Source: Quatrionicoccus australiensis (GTDB taxonomy: Bacteria > Pseudomonadota > Gammaproteobacteria > Burkholderiales > Rhodocyclaceae). From it: DNA of 64,000 nt. Made by a program: the position numbers and the translations under genes. Below, piece after piece: positions 12,337 to 21,032 of this stretch; position 1 is the first letter of the stretch; each line of letters opens with the position of its first letter. Under the pieces are notes generated by a model. It was not told the origin of the DNA, searched no databases, and saw only the letters and a program-made list of their open reading frames with translations. The stretch covers positions 1,116,001 to 1,180,000 of the forward strand of contig NZ_JAHBAH010000001.1 of the NCBI RefSeq assembly GCF_020510425.1, written 5' to 3'.

Positions 12337-12819
12337 TTAAAATCCCATTGCGTTCATGAAGCGCCGGTAGAGGCTCGGCGGTTCGCGCGGCGGCAACGGC
12401 ACATCGGCCGCTTCGCCCGAAATCGAACCGAGATCAACCAGCCGTGACTTGTTCTGCGGCGTCGTCAGATCCTCGACCGAGGCGACCTCGACATCGCCGG
12501 CAACGCGCTCGAGGCGGCCGGCAGCATCGAAGAAGACGACAAACTTGCGCTCATCGACCCGATCGGTCTGACCGTTCCGGTAACGATAGACATAATCCCA
12601 GCGCTGCTGGTGAAAGATGTCGGTAATCATCGGCGAACCGAGCAGGAAGCGAACCTGGTCGCGCGTCTGCCCCGGCTTGAGCTGGGCGACCATTTCCTGG
12701 GTCAGCACATTGCCCTGCTGGATGTCGATCTTGTATTCGTTAATGAAGGCCGGCTTGTAGGTACAAGCGGTCAGAAGCGTGCAAAAGGCTGCAACGAGCA
12801 GTAGCGGGTAACGAGGCAT
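12337..12819 (-). CDS. bamE: Outer membrane assembly lipoprotein BamE (SmpA/OmlA)
   Basis: Accessory lipoprotein of the BAM complex, which inserts beta-barrel proteins into the outer membrane. The 160-residue protein has a lipoprotein signal with lipobox LTAC (lipidated Cys19). The BamE fold follows: QGNVLTQEMVAQLKPGQT, FLLGSPMITDIFHQQRWDYVYR and the KFVVFFD strand. The C-terminal 45 residues (TTPQNKSRLVDLG and after) are an extension beyond the core domain. It is divergent from fur over 95 bases that include an imperfect palindrome GGTATatcATACC at 12855-12867, holding a TATGAT-like -10 for bamE. The bamE-fur pairing is conserved in proteobacteria. Confidence 0.93.
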   Translation of the reverse strand: MPRYPLLLVAAFCTLLTACTYKPAFINEYKIDIQQGNVLTQEMVAQLKPGQTRDQVRFLLGSPMITDIFHQQRWDYVYRYRNGQTDRVDERKFVVFFDAAGRLERVAGDVEVASVEDLTTPQNKSRLVDLGSISGEAADVPLPPREPPSLYRRFMNAMGF

Positions 12820-12914
12820 GCGGCTTTCCGGAGTTTCTCAAACACCTTTGAAGCGGTATATCATACCCGAAATCCCCTCCGGCCCCGCCGCAACACCTTC
12901 TGGAAATTTTACCG

Positions 12915-17284: not shown

Positions 17285-18313
17285 ATGATTGATGATCGCT
17301 CCCGCTCCCTGCTCAAGACGCTGGTTGAACACTACATTGCCGACGGCCAGCCGGTCGGCTCGCGGGCACTGTCGAAGTTTTCCGGGCTCGACCTGTCGCC
17401 GGCCACCATCCGCAATGTCATGGCCGACCTTGAGGAAGCCGGCTTCGTCTCCAGCCCGCACACCTCGGCCGGCCGCGTCCCGACGGCACGCGGTTACCGC
17501 CTGTTCGTCGACAGCCTGCTCACCGTGCGACCGCTCGAAGCACGCCAGATGGGCGCCATGGAAGAAGCGCTGAACGGTCAACCGGCCAGCCAGATCATTT
17601 CCAGCGCCTCGCACCTGCTCTCCGGCCTGACCCATTTTGCCGGCGTCGTCATGGCGCCGCGCCGGGGTGCCAGCCGCATCCGCCAGGTCGAATTCCTCAG
17701 CCTTTCTGAAAAGCGCATCCTGCTCATCATCGTCACCATGGATGGTGACGTGCAGAACCGCATCCTCAACACCGACAAGAACTATTCGCCATCCGAACTG
17801 GTGACCGCCGCCAATTACCTGAACCAGAATTTCGGCGGCATGGATTTCGAGCAGATCCGCCATCGCCTGACCCAGGAAATCCAGCAGTTGCGCGACGACA
17901 TCAGGCCGCTGATGACGCTGGCCCTTGAAGCCGGCGATGCCGCCTTGTCGGAAAATCCGGCGCCCTATGTCATTTCCGGCGAAAAGAACCTGCTCGACGT
18001 CGAGGAACTCTCTTCGAACATGAAACGCCTGCGCGAACTGTTCGACCTCTTCGACCAGCGTTCCAGCCTGATGCGCCTGCTCGACGTTTCCAACCGTGCC
18101 GAAGGCGTGCAGATCTACATTGGCGGCGAATCCGGCATCGCCCCGCTCGACGAATGCAGCGTCATCGCCGCCCCCTACACCGTGGACGGCCAGATCGTCG
18201 GCTCGGTCGGCGTCATCGGCCCGACCCGGATGGCCTACGAACGGGTCATCCCCATTGTCGACATCACCGCCCGCCTGCTCTCCAGCGCCCTTTCCTACCA
18301 ATCGGACAACTGA
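17285..18313 (+). CDS. hrcA: Heat-inducible transcription repressor HrcA
   Basis: Represses chaperone genes by binding the CIRCE operator. The 342-residue protein has an N-terminal winged helix ([62 protein letters not shown]). The GAF-like and dimerisation regions follow, with FIGGES-type YIGGESG and [18 protein letters not shown] near the end. Its stop overlaps the hemH start by one base (TGATG). The grpE-dnaK-dnaJ genes lie 6 kb downstream, but the promoter seen there is of the sigma-32 type and no CIRCE element was recognised in the window, so its target (often groESL) is probably elsewhere. Confidence 0.96.
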
Positions 18314-19416
18314 TGCCACGCTTTCTCACCGAGCCGCCGCACCGTCACGGCACGGCGGCCACCACCGCCGTCGTCCTCGTCAACCTGGGCACCCCGGACG
18401 CGCCGGATGCGCCGTCGCTCAAGCGCTACCTGCGCCAGTTCCTGTCCGATCCGCGCGTCGTCGAGATTCCCAAGCCGATCTGGTGGCTGATCCTGAACGG
18501 CATCATCCTCAACATCCGGCCAAAGAAATCGGCCGCCAAGTACGCCTCCGTGTGGATGCCGGAAGGTTCGCCGCTGCGCGTCCATACCGAACGCCAGGCC
18601 AAGCTGCTCGCCGGCTACATCGGCGAACGCGGTCATCACCTGACTGTTACCTGGGCGATGCGCTACGGTTCGCCATCGATTCCCGATGTGCTGTCCCGCC
18701 TCAAGGCCGGCGGTGCGACACGCATCCTGCTCGTCCCGATGTATCCGCAGTATTCGGCAAGCACGACGGCTACCGTCATCGATGAGGCCTGCCACTGGCT
18801 GACGCAAATCCGCAACCAGCCGGAACTGCGCTTCATCCGCAACTTCCACGACGACGCCGGCTACCTTGGCGCCCTCGAGCAAAGCGTGCGCAAGCACTGG
18901 CAGGCCAGCGGCCAGTTGACTGCCGATGCCCGCCTGATCATCAGTTTCCACGGACTGCCCAAACGCAGCCTCGACCTTGGCGACCCCTACTACTGCGAAT
19001 GCCAGAAGACCGGCCGCCTGCTCGCCGAACGCCTGAAGCTGCAGCCCGAGCAATACAAGGTCTGCTTCCAGTCGCGCTTCGGCAAGGCAGAGTGGCTGCA
19101 GCCCTACACCGCACCGACCCTGCAGGCACTGGGCAAGGAAGGCGTGCGCCGCGTAGACATCATCTGCCCGGGCTTCACCGCCGACTGCCTGGAAACACTG
19201 GAAGAAATCGCCCAGGAAGGGCGAGACGACTTTCTCGCCGCCGGCGGCAAGGAATACCACTACATTCCGGCACTCAACGAGAACAACGACTGGCTGCACG
19301 CCCTGACCAGCCTCGTCGAGCAACATCTCGGCGGTTGGCCGAGCAAGGCGGAAATCGATCCGCGGGCACAGGAGCTGACCGCCAGCCTGGCCGTCAAGCA
19401 CGGCGCCCACTCTTGA
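18313..19416 (+). CDS. hemH: Ferrochelatase
   Basis: Inserts Fe2+ into protoporphyrin IX, the last step of haem synthesis. The start is the ATG overlapping the hrcA stop (TGATG), giving 367 residues beginning [13 protein letters not shown]. Family features are VVLVNLGTPDAPD, the PMYPQYSASTTATV segment, the active-site His in ISFHGLPKRSL, and the C-terminal CPGFTADCLETLEEI with the catalytic Glu. Translation is likely coupled to hrcA. Downstream an ATCAGGaaaaCCTGAT hairpin (19439-19454) precedes trxC. Confidence 0.96.
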   Translation: MPRFLTEPPHRHGTAATTAVVLVNLGTPDAPDAPSLKRYLRQFLSDPRVVEIPKPIWWLILNGIILNIRPKKSAAKYASVWMPEGSPLRVHTERQAKLLAGYIGERGHHLTVTWAMRYGSPSIPDVLSRLKAGGATRILLVPMYPQYSASTTATVIDEACHWLTQIRNQPELRFIRNFHDDAGYLGALEQSVRKHWQASGQLTADARLIISFHGLPKRSLDLGDPYYCECQKTGRLLAERLKLQPEQYKVCFQSRFGKAEWLQPYTAPTLQALGKEGVRRVDIICPGFTADCLETLEEIAQEGRDDFLAAGGKEYHYIPALNENNDWLHALTSLVEQHLGGWPSKAEIDPRAQELTASLAVKHGAHS

Positions 19417-19469
19417 AAAGCGGGGCACCGGCCCACACATCAGGAAAACCTGATTAACCGGAGCCCCCG

Positions 19470-19913
19470 ATGAGTGAAAGCCTGCATGTCGTCTGCCCGC
19501 ACTGCGCGGCAGTCAACCGTCTTCCCGCCGCCCGCTTGGGCGAGCACCCGAATTGCGGACAATGCCGGCAGGCGCTGTTTTCGGGCTCGCCGATCGAGTT
19601 GACCGCTGGCAATTTCGAACGCTAGGTCGGGCGCAGCGATCTGCCGGTCGTCGTCGACTTCTGGGCCCCTTGGTGCGGCCCCTGTCGCAGCATGGCCCCG
19701 GCCTTTGCCCAGGCCTGCGCCGAATTCGAACCGCAGGTTCGCTTCGCCAAGCTCAATACCGAGAACGAACAGCAACTGGCCGCCCACTTCAATATCCGCA
19801 GCATCCCGACCCTGGCCGTTTTCAGGAACGGTCGCGAAATTGCCCGCCAGAGCGGCGCACTTGACGCGAACTCCCTCAAACACTGGGTCCGCGCCAGTCT
19901 TAACAAAACTTAA
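19470..19913 (+). pseudogene. trxC: Thioredoxin 2 (TrxC) frame interrupted by one in-frame amber codon
   Basis: TrxC is a cytoplasmic disulfide reductase with an N-terminal zinc ribbon. From the ATG at 19470 the frame encodes a zinc ribbon (Cys 9, 12, 29, 32) through NFER. It then meets TAG at 19623-19625 (codon 52), and continues without another stop as VGRSDLPVVVDFWAP, WCGPC (Cys 69 and 72), RSIPTLAVFRNG and a normal C-terminus to TAA at 19911. Intact relatives have a sense codon at this point. No good start codon lies between the TAG and the WCGPC motif; the first ATG (19692) is after it. The gene is therefore a fresh nonsense mutant, a sequencing error, or dependent on suppression or read-through. 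UAG is an ordinary stop here (dapB ends in it). Confidence 0.9.
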
Positions 19914-19967: not shown

Positions 19968-21032
19968 ATGAAAATCGCCAGCGCCCAGCTGCAAATGAGT
20001 TCATCGCACAACAGCACGCAACGCCACGAAGTTCGCGAATCGACACAGATGTGGGTTGGTCAGCGCCGGCCCAACAGCGAGCCGCAAGTCCGCCAGCCGG
20101 CCGCGAACAGCAGCCTCGTGACACTCTCCGATGCGGCAAGGCAGGGCAGCCAATCTGCGGAAGCGATCAACTCGGAGGTCGATGCAGCGGTCGACAATGA
20201 TCCGATGCTGAATTTGATCCGCAGCATGCTGGAATATCTGACCGGCAAAAAAATTCACACGTTTGACAGCAGCCAGCTGCACGGCAGCAATGGCTCGGCA
20301 ACCAGCAACACAGCACCGGCAGCAAGCGGCAGCCCAGGCAACACACCAGCGCCGGCGGCCGGCTATGGCATGGCTTACGACTACCACGAATCCTACAGCG
20401 AAACGGAGCAGACCAGCTTCTCGGCCACGGGTAGCGTACAGACCGCCGACGGGCGCAGCATCAACTTCAATGTCGAATTATCGATGTCGCGCAGCTATTA
20501 CGAAGAGAGCAACGTCAGCATCCGCCTCGGCGATGCAGCCCGTCAGGTCGATCCGCTGGTCCTCAATTTCGCCGGCAATGCCGCCCAGCTGACTGACCAG
20601 CGCTTTGCCTTCGACCTCAACAGCGACGGCAGCGCGGAACAGATCAATTTCGTTGCCCCGGGCAGCGGCTTTCTCGTGTTTGACCGCAACCACGACGGCG
20701 TCATCAACAACGGCAAGGAAATGTTCGGCCCGAGCAGCGGCAACGGTTTCAGCGAACTCGCCGCCCTCGACGATGACAAGAATGGCTGGATCGATGAAAA
20801 CGATGCTGCATTCGGCCAACTCCAGGTCTGGACACGCAACGCTGATGCAAAAGAGCAACTGCTTTCACTGGGCGATGCCGGAGTGGGTGCTATCGCCCTG
20901 GCGAACGTCGCTACGCCATTCAGCCTGAAAAATGACAGCAACCAGCTACTTGGCAAAATTCGCAGTTCCGGTATTTTTTTGCAGGAAGACGGAAGCGCTG
21001 GCACAATCCAGCAAATCGACCTGACAGCCTGA
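19968..21032 (+). CDS. EF-hand-like calcium-binding protein of unknown function
   Basis: 354 residues with a good GGAGG ribosome-binding site. The N-terminal 130 residues are polar and low in complexity (Ser, Gln, Asn, Ala, Pro). A middle part has strand-like sequence with YHESYSETEQTSF and SINFNVELSMSRSYYEES. The C-terminal 150 residues have three Asp/Asn-rich loops: DLNSDGSAEQI, DRNHDGVINNGKE and DDDKNGWIDEND. The last two resemble EF-hand or dockerin loops. A GAGVGAIALANV-like strand and GIFLQEDGSAGTIQQIDL end the protein. No Sec signal peptide and no RTX nonapeptides are seen. It is 27 bases upstream of the haem-c chemoreceptor, so the two may be co-transcribed. I recognise this as a recurrent proteobacterial hypothetical family, but the function is unknown. 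Confidence 0.8.
   Translation: MKIASAQLQMSSSHNSTQRHEVRESTQMWVGQRRPNSEPQVRQPAANSSLVTLSDAARQGSQSAEAINSEVDAAVDNDPMLNLIRSMLEYLTGKKIHTFDSSQLHGSNGSATSNTAPAASGSPGNTPAPAAGYGMAYDYHESYSETEQTSFSATGSVQTADGRSINFNVELSMSRSYYEESNVSIRLGDAARQVDPLVLNFAGNAAQLTDQRFAFDLNSDGSAEQINFVAPGSGFLVFDRNHDGVINNGKEMFGPSSGNGFSELAALDDDKNGWIDENDAAFGQLQVWTRNADAKEQLLSLGDAGVGAIALANVATPFSLKNDSNQLLGKIRSSGIFLQEDGSAGTIQQIDLTA

Follow-up and report, generated by a model that had tools for sequence, protein, structure and literature searches.

A single in-frame amber codon in trxC of Quatrionicoccus australiensis, a probable recent nonsense pseudogene

The trxC gene in the window, i.e. the whole stretch of 64,000 nucleotides of Quatrionicoccus australiensis DNA that was analysed, is probably a recent nonsense pseudogene of the ordinary kind. 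Its reading frame comprises 147 codons with a normal TAA end and carries one premature stop, a TAG at codon 52, a position that is a sense codon in close relatives; 51 residues precede the stop and 95 follow it. With X placed at the stop, the read-through protein matches the NCBIfam TrxC model NF008229 over residues 6-145 with 167.9 bits, which exceeds the whole-protein cut-off of 125 bits. It shares the N-terminal CxxC...CxxC ribbon, the thioredoxin fold and the WCGPC motif with TrxC, or thioredoxin 2 (NF008229; PF21352 ribbon and PF00085), and differs from it by the interruption, which leaves no uninterrupted frame through WCGPC. An earlier note on this DNA had described a TrxC frame with one in-frame TAG and with neither a frameshift nor a second internal stop, and the translation and the profile match bear this out. 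The features are summarized in Table 1.

Table 1. Features in and around trxC, with positions in the window.
Feature	Position	Strand	Basis
TrxC reading frame, TAA end	19470..19913	+	translation
5' part of trxC, translated: 51 codons with the zinc ribbon CPHC...CGQC, the first strand and the beginning of helix 1	19470..19622	+	translation, structure model
Thioredoxin domain PF00085, TAG near its start	19593..19892	+	profile match, 102.8 bits, 1 TAG inside
In-frame TAG, codon 52 of trxC	19623..19625	+	sequence, translation
Remainder of trxC 3' of the stop: 95 codons with WCGPC and TAA end, presumed untranslated	19626..19913	+	translation
Sole ATG-started in-frame ORF past the stop, 73 aa, without WCGPC	19692..19913	+	ORF list
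Intact upstream neighbour, presumably hemH (ferrochelatase)	18313..19416 (longer start listed at 18154)	+	ORF; aligns to relatives over its length
Intact downstream neighbour of trxC, order conserved in relatives	19968..21032	+	ORF list, relatives' loci

A ribosome-binding sequence, GGAG, is located 6 bases upstream of the trxC ATG. The earlier note's claim that no usable restart precedes WCGPC also held, as ATG, GTG and TTG are all absent in frame between the TAG and this motif. Codon 58, a CTG, is the sole near-start upstream of WCGPC, and the earliest in-frame ATG past the stop, at codon 75, lies downstream of the motif. Ribosomes would be expected to stop at codon 52 and release a 51-residue piece, made up of the zinc ribbon and part of a thioredoxin helix, and this piece is not expected to adopt the thioredoxin fold. 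A perfect 6-bp inverted repeat, ATCAGG-AAAA-CCTGAT, occupies positions 19439-19454 in the gap between hemH and trxC, 15 bases ahead of the trxC start, and is a possible operator or weak hairpin.

Codon 52 was compared in relatives, as the earlier note had proposed, using a protein search in which 8000 candidates were scored and the best 120 were listed and compared. In the closest of these, P0001 (97% identical), P0003 (85%) and P0002 (84%), codon 52 specifies Gln, and the full column of 120 holds His 105 times, Gln 14 times and Asn once. At the DNA level this codon specifies Leu in G259 and Val in G121, the two closest genomes compared. Among 119 distinct pattern matches, counted at a fixed offset, the codon is CAC or CAT in 83, CAG in 6, TAG in the window alone and something else in 29, at least one of which is spurious. 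Position 52 of TrxC is therefore variable, and the amber codon is one substitution away from sense: a single change in the Gln codon that the nearest relatives carry explains the TAG.

Protein sets cannot show stops, and six-frame DNA matches provide an independent test of whether the stop occurs in relatives. The trxC search covered 60 genomes including the strain's own, 57 of which gave some match at 1e-20. No internal stop was found in the 39 near-full-length trxC matches, which came from 37 of the 59 relative genomes. Four weaker matches (81-84 bits), to other thioredoxin genes, each contain one TAA or TGA. The named relatives in the searches are Azonexus or Dechloromonas. A sister strain was absent among the best 80 genome-contig matches, the top one being 68%. 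The region spanning hemH, trxC and the downstream gene matched in 390 of 395 genomes, many of those listed through the hemH part only; G259 and G121 are 77-78% identical over this region, too distant for dating.

The protein alignment provides some indication of age. Apart from codon 52, four residues of the window's TrxC differ from P0001. Among these four, L86F and R106H fall in columns that are at least 90% conserved, and both are downstream of the stop; Phe 86 is found in none of the 120 aligned proteins and His 106 in one other. P0001 has one change of its own at such a column, G70A. These two substitutions lean towards relaxed selection, although they are too few to show it, and the intact 3' half of trxC suggests that little time has elapsed since the mutation. 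As a separate observation, the change at residue 70 gives P0001 WCAPC in place of WCGPC, and Ala is also found there in 9 other aligned proteins and in L022.

A consensus error could give the same picture, i.e. the assembly base at 19623-19625 is wrong and trxC is intact in the strain. This explanation is unlikely, though it deserves to be kept in mind, as there is one odd position only in an otherwise intact gene and the nearest relative, at 97% identity, has a sense codon. In G024, which is one contig, trxC lies in two reading frames (L229, about 1331-1761) beside a hemH with ambiguous bases; this split may be a frameshift or an assembly error, and assembly errors may thus occur in the group. 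Against a consensus error, the assembly consists of two contigs and is 100% complete and 0.5% contaminated, and no other credible broken gene was found when the window was compared with three relatives, by eye and with Pfam on 14 ORFs. The comparison listed many stops and seven frame-change pairs, and is not a strict count. Among the first eight ORFs submitted to Pfam, the window's stop is located ahead of the domain in CysRS and PALP and six gave no match; among the next six, Fur and two RecN-like ORFs matched and three did not. In the window, the domains of Fur and RecN are both intact, with frame changes only in the stretch before the start, and by visual inspection the remaining entries were taken to be shadow ORFs or to lie near ORF ends. 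A codon-model scan for interrupted genes over 464 kb gave nine hits, and both of those inside the window sit opposite long ORFs; it missed the known trxC case, so it had no power. Ahead of fur, positions 12779-12913 are 78% identical as translated (45 residues) to a relative, outside the window's Fur frame, and are perhaps a conserved regulatory region.

The sequence context of the TAG was also considered. It sits in CTAGG; with a Gln CAG in its place the site would read CCAGG, the classic amber hotspot associated with Dcm. As the genome lacks a cytosine methylase of the PF00145 family, a methylation-linked miscall at a site resembling CCWGG is not a favoured source of a base-calling error. 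An origin of the TAG at a cytosine-methylation hotspot was dropped because neither PF00145 nor Vsr was found in the genome; in the controls, the PF00145 profile matched in 10 of 14 genomes and Vsr in 5 of 14. A literature search for the Dcm-type amber hotspot found no paper.

The earlier note had left three options open: recent loss, a wrong base, and a UAG that is read through or suppressed. Recent loss is the best supported and a base error keeps the low standing given above. Support for the third was sought in the decoding machinery of the genome, including the suppressor tRNA that the note had suggested looking for. All 61 tRNAs found with RF00005 were typed by ARAGORN and none has a CUA anticodon, although an unusual tRNA outside the RF00005 model could escape such a search. 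The tRNA typed as "tag" is a Leu tRNA that reads the CUA codon, and the only Gln tRNA found has the anticodon UUG. Both release-factor frames are open, one of 378 aa (RF2, with the SPF motif) and one of 405 aa, which we take to be RF1 from its VPETETQGRIHTS stretch. Long ORFs end in TGA 106 times, TAA 59 times and TAG 26 times (26/191), counted mechanically on the longest non-overlapping stop-to-stop ORFs of at least 300 codons in the window and a 400 kb sample. UAG is an ordinary terminator in this genome, and on these three counts its suppression or recoding is not supported.

Functional read-through would require that UAG is decoded, e.g. by Gln-tRNA, often enough to supply TrxC, with termination acting as a regulatory switch. 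The half of trxC downstream of the stop is intact, as this would predict. In E. coli, low-level misreading of UAG by Gln-tRNA is described in PMC5289835, and the base that follows the trxC stop is G rather than the U that the same paper ties to low read-through. Functional read-through is nevertheless very improbable given the absence of a CUA tRNA among the 61, an intact RF1, the ordinary use of TAG as a terminator, the absence of the stop from all 39 near-full-length matches of relatives and its position within a helix. The narrower proposal that the UUG tRNA decodes codon 52, probably as Gln, often enough for the balance of termination and read-through to set the level of TrxC is hardly credible, and nothing found here singles out read-through by the Gln tRNA. 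Misreading of the kind described for E. coli in PMC5289835 would give traces of TrxC. What trxC shares with programmed stop-codon read-through is an intact frame past the stop; it differs from it in that the stop is not conserved, no suppressor tRNA was found and no domain border falls at the stop. A literature search combining trxC with nonsense and readthrough found no paper in the collection covered.

The location of the stop within the fold was examined using the PF00085 match and a structure model of P0001, the closest relative, built with a 36-sequence alignment (mean pLDDT 93.5). The profile match begins at window position 19593 (C1:1135593), upstream of the TAG, and the model has a strand at residues 42-44, a helix at 49-54 and a strand at 60-65. 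Codon 52 thus lies within the first helix (helix 1) of the thioredoxin fold, past the first strand, whereas the earlier note had placed it between the zinc ribbon and the fold. Termination there would release no clean domain. The note's idea of a dual product, a free ribbon by termination and full TrxC by read-through, fails on this position, on the absence of the stop from the trxC matches of relatives and on the lack of a conserved free ribbon. In favour of a free zinc ribbon with a function of its own, the 51-codon ORF retains a ribosome-binding site and the full set of four ribbon cysteines, yet the chance of such a function is negligible. Using the 51-aa piece as query, a search that is weak with so short a sequence, just 5 proteins of 39-71 aa were matched, all broken-looking, with no sign of a conserved free zinc ribbon. 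Three of these (P0122, P0123 and P0125) have unlike tails, P0121 stops just past the ribbon and P0124 stops at WCGP.

Loss of trxC, as the nonsense pseudogene implies, can be tolerated, since further thioredoxin-fold genes are retained in the genome and related species lack trxC. PF00085 has 8 matches in the genome, 7 of them without stops; the other thioredoxin-fold genes include a 284-aa ORF whose N-terminal part is a thioredoxin domain and, at C1:3439037, a TrxA-like gene with 39% identity to TrxC. A TrxC-level match is missing in 6 of 35 same-genus genomes (G003, G004, G011, G013, G015 and G033, whose matches are all below 100 bits); among the 23 with a completeness of 90% or more, it is missing in 3. 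In G011 (L230) and G206 (L232), hemH adjoins the window's downstream gene without trxC, the matched ends being 79-87 bases apart, and these are clean losses of trxC within the genus. In G015 hemH is present, with neither trxC nor the downstream gene within 4 kb. On these comparisons trxC, which codes for an antioxidant protein, is dispensable in the genus. Elsewhere in the assembly, contig C2 (145.7 kb) carries a Tn3-family transposase (L196, 12900-14578) that is 73-76% identical to copies on Pseudomonas and other plasmids among the best 10 of 14 matches; these ten fall on one stretch and nine are labelled Tn3 transposase.

The trxC case resembles young bacterial nonsense pseudogenes in that a single inactivating substitution, not common to relatives, has struck a gene that is dispensable and intact in all other respects, and no trait was seen in which it differs from them. 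It also serves as a caution that an intact frame past a stop is no evidence of read-through. The finding matters little beyond annotation, and would cleanly illustrate the initial step of gene loss, within a genus that has several species without trxC.
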